From positions 6,736,001 to 6,800,000 of the forward strand of contig NZ_CP127385.1 of assembly GCF_030378205.1 (NCBI RefSeq): a stretch of DNA of 64,000 bases. Reading direction: 5' to 3'. Under the pieces are notes generated by a model, which had not been told where the DNA came from, did not search any database, and saw only the letters and a program-made list of their open reading frames with translations. How positions within the stretch are numbered: the stretch's first letter is position 1; each line of letters starts with the position of its first letter. Both the position numbers and the translations under genes were made by a program. Positions 3,657-56,067 of the stretch are shown piece after piece. The stretch is from Bradyrhizobium sp. NP1. GTDB lineage: Bacteria; Pseudomonadota; Alphaproteobacteria; Rhizobiales; Xanthobacteraceae.

Positions 3657-3689
3657 AAGTCAGGGAGGTAAACGGAATAGGATTCGGTG

Positions 3690-4802
<1,113 letters not shown>

Positions 4803-7441: not shown

Positions 7442-7681
7442 CCTTGATGGTCCCTTGATTCCGGCATTCGCAAGTCCTTCCCGGCGCGGGCAGCGAATGC
7501 TGGAATCCCGACCGCTAGCCGGGCACCAGGCGCGACGCGCGACGTCGGCGGCTTGATCATCGGCGCGGGCACGGCCAGTCGCGCTTTCAACTGTCCGTGC
7601 AAACGGGAATGGAGAGGCCTGTTTCGCAGTCCTTTCATCACAAGCCCTTTGCATCGGTTCGGGGCTACATGGGAGGTTACG

Positions 7682-16412: not shown

Positions 16413-17633
16413 TCATTCCGATTGGGCGACCAGCGGGCAGCGGCTCTGCGACAGGGGCAGCGCCGCCTCTTCCGCCGGAATGGTCTTTTCGAGACGGTAG
16501 TAGTCCCAGGGCTCCTTCACCTCGTCCGGCTTCTTGATGCTTGCCAGGTAGAACGGGTGCATCAGCCAGCCGTCGGCACGAACCGAGCCGTCGTGCACAT
16601 ACATGTCGTTGACGGGAAGCTTCCTCATCTCGTTCGCGACCGTCGGACCATCCAGCGTTTTCGCCGCCGCCACCGCACGCAGGTAGTGCAGCGTTCCCGA
16701 GTAGACTGCGGCATGATCCATGGTCGGCATCGAGCCGCGCTGCTTGAAGAAGCGCTCCGACCACGCGCGCGTTTCGGGCGTGCGGTTCCAGTAGAACGGC
16801 GTGACGAAGGTCAGGCCCTGTACGTTCTCGATACCGAGCGCATGGACGTTGGTGATGTAGGTCAGCGGCACGACAATCTGCTGGCCGCCCTGGGCGACGC
16901 CGAACTCCCTGGCCTGCTTCAGCGCGTTGGTGGTGTCTTCGGCCGCCGAGATCAGCCACATCACCTTCGCCTTGGACGAGACGGCCTGCAGAATGAACGA
17001 GCTGAAGTCCGGATTGTTCTGCGGGAAGCGGACCGAGCCGACCACCTTGCCGCCGGCCGCCTTGATGGCGCCGGTCGCCGCATCCTCCATCGCCTTGCCG
17101 AACGAATAGTCGGCCGACAGGAAGAAGAAGCTGTCGAGGCCGCGCTCGATCAACGGCTTCGGCAGCGGCGCGGAAATCGCGTAGGCGTTCAGCGACCAGG
17201 AGAACGCCGTCGGCGCGCAGGCCTGCTGCGTGATCGCGGGTGTTCCCGTGACGCCATGGATCACGATCTTGTTGTGCGATCGCGCCAATTCCTGGACGGC
17301 GAGCGCCACGGCCGACTGCGCGACGTCGACGATGACGTCGGCGCCGCCATTGTCGAACCAGTTCCTGGCAATCGCGGCACCGACATCGGCCTTGGCCTGA
17401 TGATCGCCGGACACGATCTCGATCGGCCGGCCGAGCACGCTGCCGCCGAAATCCTCCACCGCCATCTTCGCCGCCAGCACCGAGCCAGGCCCCATGATGT
17501 CGCGATACATGCCGGACATGTCGGTCAGCACGCCGATCCTGACTGGTTTCGACGCATCCTCGGCGCGGCTTGCGACCGCCGACACCATGCAGATCGACAG
17601 CACCGTCGCCGCGAGAATTCCCTTGCTTGCCAT
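16413..17633 (-). CDS. ABC transporter solute-binding protein, branched-chain amino acid type
   Basis: 406 residues with a signal peptide (ILAATVLSICMVSAVASRAE) and a periplasmic-binding fold of the LivJ kind (VRIGVLTDMSGMYRDIMGPG, ADYSFGKAMEDAA). Such orphan binding proteins in this genus often serve aromatic acids. No permease or ATPase genes are adjacent, so it must share a transporter encoded elsewhere, possibly the Liv system at 29.2-33.9 kb. It is first gene of the four-gene catabolic operon. The start at 17633 follows GGGGAAGCGTC. Confidence 0.88.
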   Translation of the reverse strand: MASKGILAATVLSICMVSAVASRAEDASKPVRIGVLTDMSGMYRDIMGPGSVLAAKMAVEDFGGSVLGRPIEIVSGDHQAKADVGAAIARNWFDNGGADVIVDVAQSAVALAVQELARSHNKIVIHGVTGTPAITQQACAPTAFSWSLNAYAISAPLPKPLIERGLDSFFFLSADYSFGKAMEDAATGAIKAAGGKVVGSVRFPQNNPDFSSFILQAVSSKAKVMWLISAAEDTTNALKQAREFGVAQGGQQIVVPLTYITNVHALGIENVQGLTFVTPFYWNRTPETRAWSERFFKQRGSMPTMDHAAVYSGTLHYLRAVAAAKTLDGPTVANEMRKLPVNDMYVHDGSVRADGWLMHPFYLASIKKPDEVKEPWDYYRLEKTIPAEEAALPLSQSRCPLVAQSE

Positions 17634-17685
17634 GACGCTTCCCCTGTTCGGGCGGTTGTGATTCCACCGCCTCTTGTTCTGCATC

Positions 17686-17849
17686 TAGTGTGGCGGCTCC
17701 GACGTTCCTTCACTTTCGCCGCATGTTCTTCAAAGGAACGTCAGAGCCAAAGCCACACTAGAATCCTATATTTGCTAGTGCCCCTTTGGTTCTGACATTC
17801 GCAAACGTGGCGCCGCAAAATGATGCGAATGTCAGAACCGGGGCACTAG
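17686..17849. repeat. Tandem double-hairpin repeat element, copy 1
   Basis: Two imperfect palindromes of 75 bp each. The first (17686-17760) has arms beginning TAGTGTGG and ending CCACACTA. The second (17775-17849) runs from CTAGTGCCCC to GGGGCACTAG. A 14-bp linker (GAATCCTATATTTG) separates them. In each hairpin one arm carries an extra TTT before GG. The element fills the gap between the solute-binding-protein gene and the module C CoA-transferase, whose TAG stop lies in its right end. The same arrangement recurs at 54907-55073, and a single related hairpin at 28012-28079. Confidence 0.75.
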
Positions 17850-19099
17850 ATGATGCTTCGAGCCCGCAGCTCCTCGATCCGCTCGTCCGAAAGCCCGAGC
17901 AGTTCGCCGTAGATCTCGGGATTGTCCTGGCCAAGCGAGGGCGCCGGCGCGGCGTATCCCTTGTGGGTCCGTCCCATCTTGATCGGGAAGCCGGCGCCTA
18001 TGACCTTGTCGTTCAGTCGTTCGGTCGGGTGTTGCAGCGGCTGCAGCATGTCGCGCGACTGCAGATGTTTCCACGCCAGGATGTCGGCGAAATCCCGGAT
18101 CGGGCTCGCCGCGATCTCGTTGCTGTTGAGCGCCTCGATCGCTTCCGCCGTCGTCAGCCGACTCGTCCACGCCTCGACGATCGCGTCGATCTCGGCGTTG
18201 TTGCTGACCCGCCAGCCGGTGCTCATGAACTGCTCGCTTTGCGCGAGATCCATCCGGTCCATGACCCGCAGCAGCGCGAGCCAGTCTTCATTGGTGGCGG
18301 CGCCGATCGCGACCGTGCCGTCCTTCGTCGGATAGGTGTTGAACGGCGAAAACCGCATGATGCGGTTGCCCTGGCGCGGCGCCAGCCCAAGACGATCGTA
18401 GCAATCCAGCGGCTCGTCGAGGACCAGCGACAGCAGGCAGTCCGTCATGGAAACGTCGACGAACTGGCCCTGGCCCGACGAACGCTGCTCGATCAGCGCA
18501 GCGAGAATGCCGGAAACCGCGAATGCTCCGGTGATGCCGTCGGCAAGCGCGGTGCCCGCCTTGCTCGGCGGGCTCTCCGGCGCGCCCGTGATGCTCATCA
18601 GGCCGGCGCCGGCCTGGATCATGAGATCATAGGCCTTCAGCCCGCGGTCTTCGCCGGTCGAGCCGTAGCCGGTCAGCGCGCAATGAACGATGGCGGGGTT
18701 GACCGCGCGGTTCGATTCGTAGTCGATCCCGAGGCGCCGCGCCGCGCCCGGCCGCAGGTTCTCAACGAGGATATCGGACTTGCGCAGCAGCTCGCGAAAC
18801 AGGTCCATGCCCTCCGGCGAGCGCATGTTCAGCGTGATGGATTTCTTGCCGCGGCAACGCTTGAGATAGGCAATGCCGAGATCGCTGTCGTGCTGGCCCT
18901 CCAGCGACACGCCGCCCTTGCCGAGGAAGGGTGGCCCGGTCATGGTCGGATCGCCCTGGCCGGGCTCGTCGATCCGGATCACCTCCGCGCCGAAGCCCGC
19001 CAGCATCAGGGTGGCGAACGGACCGGAATAAAACCGCGTCACGTCGAGCACCCTGACACCTTGCAGGGCGCCCTGCTTCGCTGCGTTCAGTCCCGTCAC
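17846..19099 (-). CDS. Class III CoA-transferase (CaiB/BaiF family), module C
   Basis: 417 residues, starting at a GTG preceded by AAGGCGG. Landmarks are GVRVLDVTRFYSGPFATLML, AEVIRIDEPGQGDP, VENLRPGAARRLG and the active-site region AGTALADGITGAFA. It stands alone between the double-hairpin repeat and a divergent LysR gene 125 bp away that probably controls it. It is third CoA-transferase of the same superfamily within 11 kb but clearly divergent from the other two. Confidence 0.9.
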   Translation of the reverse strand: MTGLNAAKQGALQGVRVLDVTRFYSGPFATLMLAGFGAEVIRIDEPGQGDPTMTGPPFLGKGGVSLEGQHDSDLGIAYLKRCRGKKSITLNMRSPEGMDLFRELLRKSDILVENLRPGAARRLGIDYESNRAVNPAIVHCALTGYGSTGEDRGLKAYDLMIQAGAGLMSITGAPESPPSKAGTALADGITGAFAVSGILAALIEQRSSGQGQFVDVSMTDCLLSLVLDEPLDCYDRLGLAPRQGNRIMRFSPFNTYPTKDGTVAIGAATNEDWLALLRVMDRMDLAQSEQFMSTGWRVSNNAEIDAIVEAWTSRLTTAEAIEALNSNEIAASPIRDFADILAWKHLQSRDMLQPLQHPTERLNDKVIGAGFPIKMGRTHKGYAAPAPSLGQDNPEIYGELLGLSDERIEELRARSII

Positions 19100-27246: not shown

Positions 27247-28011
27247 GTGTCGACCAAAGACGGTTTCACTCCCGACCATCCCTTGCCGCTCTTTCTCTCC
27301 GACCAGGCGGATGAAGAGGTACAGCGGGGTCCGTCGCGACTCCTCAAGGCGAGCACCGCGGTCATGGCGGCGGCCGTGATTTGTGTCGCCGTGGCCCTGG
27401 CACTGGGAAATCCGGCGAAGGTCGTTGCCGACCTCACGGCCTCGCTGACCGACGTTTCGGCGCTAAAGGCTGACGCCGATCAGTCGACGCCAACAATTCA
27501 ATCAACCGCTGACACTCAGGCTTTGCAGCCGACGGCGAGGGACGCGCCAGCGCGCGACGAGACTTCCGCCAATTCCGATGCCGTCGCGCAGAGCCAGCCG
27601 GAAACCGGCGAGGCGCCGTCGGGAGCGCTGTTGAAGCAGTTTCAGAATTGGGCAGCCGAGCAGGACGCAAAGACGCAGGCCCAGCCTGCGCCGGATGCGC
27701 GGGCGCAGGCCGAACCCATAGAGTCTGTTCCGGACGCGCGCGCGCCGGTCGAGCCTGTGCAGGCTGCACAGGATAAATCGGAACAGAACCTGCAAAATGC
27801 TGAAGCACCGGTCCGACCGGTCAAGCGGCACCGAAGGGCCCAGCCCGTCCAGAATGCGCGGGCGGAGATAAGGTCGCCACGTCCCCAGACAAGGATTCCG
27901 CGTCATCAAGCGCCGCGGGCAGAGGTGCGCCCGGCGCAGGCACAGGAGCAGGCGGGGCCCTATGGCCAGCCGCCATCGTTCCTGCAAAGCCTCGGCCTTC
28001 GCGATTACTAA
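27247..28011 (+). CDS. Membrane-anchored Ala/Gln/Pro-rich hypothetical protein
   Basis: 254 residues from the GTG at 27247, five bases after GGAGG (an in-frame GTG at 27241 is too close). Residues 1-35 are cytoplasmic, followed by one transmembrane helix (STAVMAAAVICVAVALALG), then a long disordered region with repeats of the type PDARAQAEP / PDARAPVEP and a basic stretch VKRHRRAQP. It is probably a bitopic inner-membrane protein extending into the periplasm. Its stop abuts a palindromic repeat. Confidence 0.7.
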   Translation: MSTKDGFTPDHPLPLFLSDQADEEVQRGPSRLLKASTAVMAAAVICVAVALALGNPAKVVADLTASLTDVSALKADADQSTPTIQSTADTQALQPTARDAPARDETSANSDAVAQSQPETGEAPSGALLKQFQNWAAEQDAKTQAQPAPDARAQAEPIESVPDARAPVEPVQAAQDKSEQNLQNAEAPVRPVKRHRRAQPVQNARAEIRSPRPQTRIPRHQAPRAEVRPAQAQEQAGPYGQPPSFLQSLGLRDY

Positions 28012-28079
28012 TGCGGTCGTTCGGAGTTTCTCCTGATTGCGCGTTCGCCAGGAGAACTTCCGAGCCAAACCGCACTTTC
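28012..28079. repeat. Single hairpin of the double-hairpin repeat family, between convergent genes
   Basis: Arms TGCGGT...CTCCTG (28012-28034) and CAGGAG...ACCGCA (28049-28074). The right arm carries the extra TTTGG that the left lacks, as in the copies at 17686-17849. It fills the space between the stop codons of the flanking convergent genes and could act as a bidirectional terminator. Confidence 0.7.
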
Positions 28080-54027: not shown

Positions 54028-54102
54028 TGGCGCTCCCAAGGGGAATCGAACCCCTGTTTCAGCCTTGAGAGGGCCGCGTCCTAACCGCTAGACGATGGGA
54101 GC
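54028..54102 (-). tRNA. tRNA-Glu (CTC anticodon)
   Basis: Seven-base acceptor stem GCTCCCA / TGGGAGC, D-arm GTCTAGCGGTTAGGAC, anticodon loop CTCTCAA with anticodon CTC, T-arm AGGGGTTCGATTCCCCT. G73 and a CCA end are encoded. The 3' end faces the accessory block, the position where integrative elements usually insert. Confidence 0.93.
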
Positions 54103-54906: not shown

Positions 54907-55073
54907 TTGGTGCCGCTGATCTGAAGCTCCTATCATGCCGCCGCGAACGCGTCCCAGGAACTTCAGATCGAAAAGCGGCACCAAAATCATGGATTTGCCG
55001 GTGCCCCTCGCTTTCCGAAGTTCGTGTAAGAATGTGCAGCAATGAGAGACGAACTTCGGAAAGCGGACACCGG
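54907..55073. repeat. Tandem double-hairpin repeat element, copy 2, overlapping rluD start
   Basis: First hairpin 54907-54984 (arms TTGGTGCCGC...CTCCT and AGGA...GCGGCACCAA), second 54998-55073 (arms CCGGTG...GAAGTTCGT and ACGAACTTC...CACCGG), linker 13 bp (AATCATGGATTTG). The inner arm of the second is a perfect 16 bp (55010-55025 with 55049-55064). One arm again has extra bases before the match resumes. The rluD ATG (55042) is in the second loop. Confidence 0.75.
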
Positions 55074-56067
55074 GGGTGAGAAAAGGCTGGAGGTCACCGT
55101 CGCCGGCGACGAGGGATCGGCCCGGCTCGACCGCGTGCTGGCGCTGCGCTGCGAGGGCCTGTCGCGCTCGCGGCTGAAGGCGCTGATCCTCGCAGGCGCC
55201 GTGACGGTGAAGTCGGTCCCGGTCCGCGACCCCGCTTACCACGTCACGGCCGGCGATACGATCCTGATCGAGGTGCCCGAGGCTGCGCCGGCCGAGCCCG
55301 CCGGCGAGGCGATCGCGCTCGACATTACTTATGAGGATGCCGACATCATCGTTATCAACAAGCCGGCCGGCCTCGTGGTGCATCCGGCCGCCGGCCACGA
55401 GAGCGGCACGCTGGTGAATGCGCTGATCGCCCATTGCGGGGCGAGCCTGTCGGGGATCGGCGGGGTGCGCCGGCCGGGCATCGTGCACCGGCTCGACAAG
55501 GATACTTCGGGACTGATGGTGGTCGCCAAGAACGACCTCGCCCATCAGGGCCTCGCGGCGCAGTTCGCCGACCATGGCCGCACCGGCGCGATGCAGCGCG
55601 GCTACCTGGCGTTCGCCTGGGGCCTGCCGAACCGCCTCCGCGGCTCGGTCGACGCGCCGATCGACCGCCACCCGCATGCGCGCGATAAGATGGCGGTGCG
55701 CGAGGGCGGCCGCGAGGCCGTCACCCATTGGGAGATCCGCAGGAGCTTTGCCGGGCGCGACGGCAAGCCGGTCGCTTCACTGCTCGCCTGCCGGCTCGAG
55801 ACCGGACGCACCCACCAGATCCGCGTCCATCTCGCTTATATCGGGCATCCGCTGCTGGGCGATGCCGTCTACGGCCCGCACTTCAAGACCAAGGCGAGCC
55901 AGCTCGGCGAGCAGGGTCGCGCTGCGCTGGAGGCGCTGGACCGGCAGGCCCTGCATGCCTATCTCCTGGTTCTGGAACACCCGCGCAGCGGGGAACTCAT
56001 GCATTGGGAGGCGCCGCTGCCCCCCGAGCTCGCCCGCCTGGAGGGCACCCTGGAAGCGGCGGTTTGA
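55042..56067 (+). CDS. rluD: Ribosomal large-subunit pseudouridine synthase, RluD type
   Basis: 341 residues. An N-terminal S4 domain (SARLDRVLALRCEGLSRSRL) precedes the catalytic domain with GIVHRLDKDTSGLMVVAKN, whose aspartate is the catalytic residue, and RLETGRTHQIRVHLAYIGHP. It converts uridines of helix 69 of 23S rRNA. No strong ribosome site precedes the ATG at 55042, which sits inside a hairpin of the repeat element; residues 3-10 are encoded by the repeat arm. Gene order rluD-rpoH is usual in this group. Confidence 0.93.
   Translation: MRDELRKADTGGEKRLEVTVAGDEGSARLDRVLALRCEGLSRSRLKALILAGAVTVKSVPVRDPAYHVTAGDTILIEVPEAAPAEPAGEAIALDITYEDADIIVINKPAGLVVHPAAGHESGTLVNALIAHCGASLSGIGGVRRPGIVHRLDKDTSGLMVVAKNDLAHQGLAAQFADHGRTGAMQRGYLAFAWGLPNRLRGSVDAPIDRHPHARDKMAVREGGREAVTHWEIRRSFAGRDGKPVASLLACRLETGRTHQIRVHLAYIGHPLLGDAVYGPHFKTKASQLGEQGRAALEALDRQALHAYLLVLEHPRSGELMHWEAPLPPELARLEGTLEAAV

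Follow-up and report, generated by a model that had tools for sequence, protein, structure and literature searches.

The paired hairpins at positions 17685-17849 of the window, the whole 64,000-nt stretch of DNA analysed here (G000:C1:6736001-6800000, in a single-contig host genome of 7.71 Mb), belong to a repeat family of gene-less elements of ~165 bp (about 165-170 bp). Judged from their sequences, these elements are very probably non-autonomous IS630-type MITEs, which an IS630-family (Tc1/mariner-like) transposase would paste at the TA of CTAG. Their build is unusual, in that behind each end of the MITE comes the reverse complement of that end.

Two dimers and a relic in the window

The complete element at 17685-17849 (+ strand) consists of a G-type left hairpin, CTAGTGTGG...CCACACTAG (17685-17761, +), a linker, AATCCTATATTTG (17762-17774, +), and a C-type right hairpin that reads CTAGTGCCCC...GGGGCACTAG on the + strand (17775-17849, −). 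The inner arm of the left hairpin carries an AAA bulge at 17749-17751, and that of the right hairpin a TTT bulge at 17785-17787. Both hairpins fold, and R1, a covariance model of one hairpin, scores them at 82.9 and 88.7 bits, respectively; copies elsewhere in the genome reach up to 92% identity. A second, diverged double-hairpin element was located at 54907-55073 (+) by R1 and by folding, with its left hairpin at 54907-54984 (+; 57.7 bits), the linker AATCATGGATTTG at 54985-54997 (+) and its right hairpin at 54998-55073 (−; 54.2 bits). The earlier note had pointed to a single-hairpin relative near 28012-28079; R1 recovers it at 28008-28078 (+; 30.5 bits, E 4.5e-6) as a single-hairpin relic of the family, which also folds. 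R1 was built from alignment A1, comprising 55 hairpins from 29 loci of the host genome, with both hairpins of the first element inside this training set and the other three window hairpins outside it. A1 keeps 55 of 56 hairpins, L006:1502-1573 having been excluded with its inner bulge lost; L029 has no row in it, and L011 and L025 have none for their second hairpin. DNA folding gave z-scores of −10.9 for the first element, −7.8 for the second and −4.1 for the single hairpin, and none of 200 shuffles folded as well in any of the three cases.

R1 detects all four hairpins of the two pairs, so that the common architecture claimed for them in the earlier note holds: they are two copies of one element, and the earlier description of linkers, loops and additional bases in one arm is correct. 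The position of those additional bases can be stated more closely, since they lie in the inner arm, adjoining the linker (173 of 182 hairpins). The description of the hairpins as tandem does not stand; the bulge and loop motif are mirrored, giving an inverted orientation. Elsewhere in the window, R1 has a weak match at 7443-7518 (−; 19.3 bits, E 0.0066), perhaps another relic, and the earliest start available to a pseudouridine synthase ORF at 55042-56067 (+; PF00849, S4) lies within the second element's right hairpin.

Size, build and distribution of the family

BLAST returned at least 61 matches in the host genome (40 of 187 candidates scored) and R1 at least 150 (150 scored of 4404 candidates), which pool, some weak matches included, to at least 254 hairpins at at least 136 loci. 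Two hairpins are present at 94 of these loci, three or four at 9 and one at 33, where some loci rest on weak matches; among 17 single or odd loci inspected, many are truncated or rearranged dimers. Two single hairpins, G000:C1:925958-926043 and 4103454-4103527, join a G-type to a C-type outer arm, as if the interior of a dimer had been lost.

Each element is formed by two ~76-bp hairpins that face each other across a linker of mostly 12-13 nt, with CTAG bounding each hairpin. The typical hairpin, of about 26 base pairs, begins with CTAGTG and closes with CACTAG. Among the host-genome matches listed, adjacent hairpins are oriented (+,−) in 40 of 42 pairs, 36 of these 40 having a linker of 12-13 nt, and the remaining two are back-to-back joins with one common CTAG; at loci of other genomes, the orientation is (+,−) in 103 of 115 adjacent pairs. 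One dimer count admitted (+,−) neighbours only, a choice of which these two orientation counts are free. The inner arm exceeds the outer by 2-4 bases in the 173 hairpins mentioned above, by exactly 3 in 143, and 9 of the 182 host-genome hairpins are without such a surplus; across the 55 aligned hairpins, the extra bases are AAA in 31 and GAA in 16. After CTAGTGT the two ends of an element differ, one being G-rich (GG) and the other C-rich (CC). By this measure 85 of 91 host dimers are mixed and 6 ambiguous, with none of equal type, and the 99 dimers of other genomes comprise 79 mixed, 13 ambiguous, 6 GG and 1 CC. Over 24 bases, every one of the 91 host dimers has at least 4 differences between its two outer arms, and every one of the 99 others at least 5. 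When folded as DNA, 88 of the 91 host dimers give two hairpins and 3 give one long hairpin.

The family is patchily distributed, occurring in 11 of the 25 genus genomes searched (host included) and in none of 16 genomes of the order's other families at E≤1e-4. A pattern scan of named genomes matched at least 120 stretches and placed the family, among the matches listed, in Nitrobacter winogradskyi and vulgaris, several Mesorhizobium, Afipia and Pseudorhodoplanes, as well as in Xanthobacteraceae, Parvularculaceae, Magnetospira and Brucella grignonensis. Of 72,556 plasmid records, 8 and 9 matched with two queries; none of 50,697 phage records matched with one.

Movement as a unit into CTAG

Two lines of evidence show that the element moved as a unit into CTAG. 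First, at three places in the host genome a whole dimer is nested in another dimer, exactly at a hairpin-end CTAG, with the left and right border letters CTAG/CTAG at 1647380, CTGG/CTAG at 4919400 and CTCG/CTCG at 5313340. Second, a relative (G010) carries seven near-identical dimers at different sites, which are alike up to the CTAG and differ in the outer 20 nt; these copies moved recently. Element borders in general show CTAG or a near form. No clean empty site was found between close strains: in G004, from which the 17685-17849 element is absent, the intergenic DNA has diverged too far. Together with the IS630-like ends described below, the nested insertions, the near-identical copies at different sites and the CTAG target bear out the earlier suggestion of a mobile unit.

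This target has a precedent in the family of the putative mover. The title of Tenzen and Ohtsubo 1991 (cited in PMC2170065) states that an IS630-associated composite transposon prefers the TA in 5′-CTAG-3′, and ISY100, of the IS630 family, is described as inserting at TA and duplicating TA (PMC2170065). By excising the element and pasting it at the TA of CTAG, an IS630-family transposase would leave CTAG at both borders; the target duplication would then be TA rather than CTAG, the two giving the same letters at a CTAG target, as in the nested insertions. Candidates for an autonomous hairpin–gene–hairpin copy (L281, L312, L289, L106, L344 and L067) were rejected, since they turned out to be neighbouring dimers on either side of genes of ordinary appearance, a dimer that is truncated, or an insertion of IS5-like type.

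Similarity of the outer arms to IS630 ends

The outer arms would be the terminal inverted repeats that an IS630-family transposase recognizes, and we compared those of the host genome with 15 IS ends. One closely matching IS is found in genome G015, and its transposase (L408:1366-2454:-) is NF033545, transpos_IS630 (274 bits against a cut-off of 100), and also matches PF13358. It is present in three copies with identical transposase, two of which measure 1196 bp from CTAG to CTAG and the third of which is without the left CTAG. The IS ends are CTAGTGTCCTGAACCAAAAGTTCG and CTAGTGTCCTGAATCAGAAGTTCG, and an outer arm of the MITE reads CTAGTGTCCCGAATCCGAAGTTCG; over the 20 positions after CTAG, the best-matching outer arm has 2 mismatches to CTAGTGTCCTGAATCAGAAGTTCG, and the median outer arm has 7-8 to CTAGTGTCC-type ends. 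The ends of the G015 and Mesorhizobium muleiense IS both come within 2 of 20 mismatches of host outer arms, and those of L401 match loosely (7-8 of 20). As a control, 731 non-arm CTAG sites gave a median of 15 mismatches of 20 and best values of 3-9, the latter because arms of decayed copies stayed in the control set. Inner arms have at least 11 mismatches to CTAGTGTCC-type ends in register, since the AAA shifts the register.

IS630 lineages whose ends differ from these are similar to other types of hairpin. The IS630 end CTAGTCACATGAATCTAAAGTTCG (CTAGTCAC..; G021, G010 and G005) has 3 of 20 mismatches to the Roseibium C-type arm CTAGTCACCCGAATCTGAAGTTCG, and the end CTAGTGGAT.. (G019) has 5 of 20 to CTAGTGGCCC-type arms; arm diversity may thus track transposase diversity, as far as sequence comparison can tell. 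Several IS630 of element-bearing genomes have unrelated CTAG ends, such as CTAGAGCG.. (13 of 20 mismatches), and the G-type GTGTGG is absent from all 15 IS ends compared. At 29 homologous IS630 loci in relatives, CTAG-bounded repeats stand at both ends in 17 and at one end in 1, with none found at the other 11, many of which are fragments.

The MITE loop motif did not extend the match past about 30 bp, being present in 2 of 23 IS ends. Short self-hairpins, each about 34 nt long, are predicted for both ends of L408. None of eight IS ends folded (four IS) has the long inner complementary arm, so that loss of the interior of a known IS does not by itself account for the MITE.

A DDE_3 match was obtained in 10 of the 12 element-bearing genomes searched (8 above the cut-off and 2 below it) and in none of the remaining 2. 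The host genome has no IS630 match at E≤0.001, and likewise none at E≤1e-30; with no detectable IS630 transposase beside them, the host copies are probably stranded. As a stranded MITE may have no matching transposase in the same genome, we did not treat its presence as defining for each host. Of the 25 genus genomes, 7 have both the MITE and IS630, 4 the MITE alone, 6 IS630 alone and 8 neither, so that an association is not evident in this set (IS630 homologues in 7 of 11 element-bearing genomes). G010 contains, in addition to other IS630, a broken copy that has 78% identity with the fitting transposase and in which one end can be recognized. Several characters of an IS630-type MITE are found: the element is short, has no transposase gene, carries terminal repeats that match IS630, inserts at CTAG and has copies that moved recently.

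IS481 and IS5-group elements also use CTAG. That the MITE is moved by such a DDE family in place of IS630 is nonetheless improbable. IS481 models match in 11 of 12 element-bearing genomes, 3 of them above the cut-off, yet no end pair like the MITE arms was seen at 30 IS481-like loci; similarly, an IS5-like IS sits in the CTAG of one element, but its ends are unrelated, whereas IS630 ends do match the outer arms. The insertion in question, in a hairpin-element CTAG of L067 (about 3670-4772; G000:C1 about 1196669-1197771), is truncated, has a 119-aa OrfA-like ORF and a 174-aa passenger ORF, and is one that we take to be IS5-like.

Placement between genes and at stop codons

Gene context was assigned to the 91 host dimers with our own crude ORF caller, not from annotation: 44 lie between codirectional genes, 27 between divergent and 17 between convergent genes, with 2 inside an ORF and 1 undecided. 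In 26 of the 91, a terminal CTAG contains the TAG stop of a gene. The first window element is among them, its CTAG at 17846-17849 including the stop of a CoA-transferase family III gene (17846-19099, −; ORF list, Pfam PF02515). Both ends do so in 4 of the 26, as expected if convergent genes had once overlapped by one CTAG. The same placement recurs on the large plasmids of Roseibium/Labrenzia (L330-L336), where every record has a single match, always at one locus and next to the gene of an SDR oxidoreductase, at its stop codon; by annotation, this holds in 7 of 7 records examined, of 9 matching.

CTAG itself is scarce. In 645 kb of the host genome, 220 sites were seen outside elements against 2111 expected from base composition, an about tenfold depletion, and they divide into 136 intergenic sites, 38 at stops and 46 inside genes. 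The stop-codon share of dimers outside ORFs (26 of 89) is in no strong excess over that of such CTAG sites (38 of 174), and placement is therefore near what target supply and the sparing of genes give. Insertions would persist where they are harmless, between genes and at TAG stops, where the duplicated CTAG would restore the stop.

Paired stems and the question of an RNA

The earlier note held that the arms had diverged yet remained complementary, and proposed a covariance-model search. That search found the family genome-wide and in relatives, with covariation above that of column shuffles. In 54 distinct hairpins, 97.0% of cells are paired (shuffle mean 80.7%); changes on both sides account for 221 cells and are present in 18 of 26 pairs (column-shuffle mean 13.5). 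In four of five covariation measures, none of 500 shuffles reached the observed value; the number of pair types was reached by 47 of 500. Much of this covariation is subfamily structure.

Orthologous copies test the point more cleanly. G015 and G023 have two loci in common, with flanks 79 and 90% and 82 and 79% identical in a locus set that still contains overlapping loci. Their four hairpins (104 pairs), read like the other orthologous pairs on an alignment fitted to the covariance model, show six two-sided Watson–Crick changes, two of which (G-C to C-G and A-T to C-G) require a transversion in each arm, and five one-sided changes (three mispair/Watson–Crick, one wobble/pair and one mispair/wobble), against some 26 one-sided changes expected without constraint at about 15% divergence by our own arithmetic. 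The stems thus largely stay paired after insertion, and the claim that structure is kept, beyond a simple palindrome, holds in situ at two orthologous loci. Seven Roseibium/Labrenzia copies have five distinct stem changes, all one-sided and four of them pair-breaking, and in M. wenxiniae two pairs are broken that are intact in its two relatives; damage to the stems is therefore not mended at once. The four Mesorhizobium genomes compared have one hairpin with an unchanged stem and the other with a one-sided change.

Strong covariation, stems mostly intact in orthologous copies, strong predicted RNA folds and the dimers right at stop codons would all suit a conserved structured RNA, an RNA-processing element or a terminator, repeated by chance, and an RNA element had been one of the two readings first offered. 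It is very unlikely. Mispairs of the G-T kind number 21 in 1424 cells and those of the A-C kind 24 (18 are of other kinds); the two are equally rare and no strand is favoured, so that an RNA role is not indicated. Rfam has no match at the hairpins, the tRNA at 54031-54102 being its only match in the window, and a scan of 17600-17950 found no terminator-like site by its T-tract criterion. The dimers show no preference for convergent genes, their context counts standing beside 57303 codirectional, 25912 divergent and 20658 convergent intergenic bases, and they moved as units.

For the IS630-type MITE, the kept stems are compatible both with selection on structure and with copying from one arm to the other. 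The inner arms with their 3-base insertion would fold each end on itself and be unusable as transposon ends. We tentatively suggest, as a possibility and not as the favoured expectation, that the MITE ends fold on themselves and not on each other, that the arms are kept alike by arm-to-arm copying (hairpin-templated repair in replication), and that the difference between the ends and the extra inner bases keep the dimer one oriented mobile unit.

Comparison with known systems

The element is very probably an unusually built kind of IS630-type MITE. Like RUP, Correia and NEMIS as described in PMC2229807, it is under 200 bp, has no transposase gene and has TA termini and stem-loops; the same source reports that RUP of Streptococcus pneumoniae has terminal repeats like those of IS630-family IS, with IS630-Spn1 as its partner, and gives RUP and Correia one pair of terminal repeats each, of 9 and 24 bp. 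It differs from RUP and Correia in that each of its ends folds into a separate long hairpin with additional bases on the inner side, one end is systematically G-type and the other C-type, and its target is the whole CTAG. With the IS630 of Bradyrhizobium-like and Mesorhizobium genomes (L408/L417, L416, L418, L422 and L427), it has in common the CTAG borders and the first ~24-30 bp; those IS are about 1.15-1.2 kb long, carry a transposase gene and have no long inner arm in the eight ends folded.

REPINs, BIMEs and the GTAG and CGTC REP dimers are, as presented in PMC3733652, likewise extragenic inverted dimers of imperfect palindromes, commonly heterodimers; the element has a longer unit, CTAG borders, no GTAG or CGTC tag and no RAYT link. 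In an origin like that of GTAG repeats in Bradyrhizobium, a RAYT (Y1 tyrosine transposase) would mobilize dimers of REP or REPIN type; this accounts for inverted, extragenic, high-copy hairpin dimers, which with heterodimers are on record (PMC3733652), and the host has two Y1_Tnp genes, but we rejected it as the least probable reading, with hairpins of ~76 bp and not 20-40 bp, CTAG ends that are paired without any unpaired GTAG or CGTC tag seen, both host Y1 genes flanked by a different repeat, GTAGGGTGGGCAAAGCG.., and no Y1_Tnp match (E≤0.001) in 10 of 15 other element-bearing genomes. At L031 (G000:C1:1465208-1468504) and L032 (G000:C1:5440365-5443661), a Y1/RAYT-like gene lies within 30-32-bp inverted GTAGGGTGGGCAAAGCG..GTGCCCACC repeats, which are a different REP system. 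In the literature consulted we recognized no paper as describing the family; the consensus sequences of PMC3733652 stand in its figures, and the family could conceivably be identical with one of them.

Implications

Assigning the dimers to IS630-type MITEs gives a repeat family widespread in Alphaproteobacteria (Bradyrhizobium, Nitrobacter, Mesorhizobium, Afipia, Roseibium and others) a likely transposase. Orthologous hairpin pairs offer a natural test of single against joint change in paired bases. If arm-to-arm copying is true, covariation would be the signature of a DNA process, and RNA-structure calls from the covariation of repeats would call for caution. The family also shows how a genome can be filled while its genes are spared: CTAG is rare, the stop codon is one of its sites, and insertion there would restore the stop.
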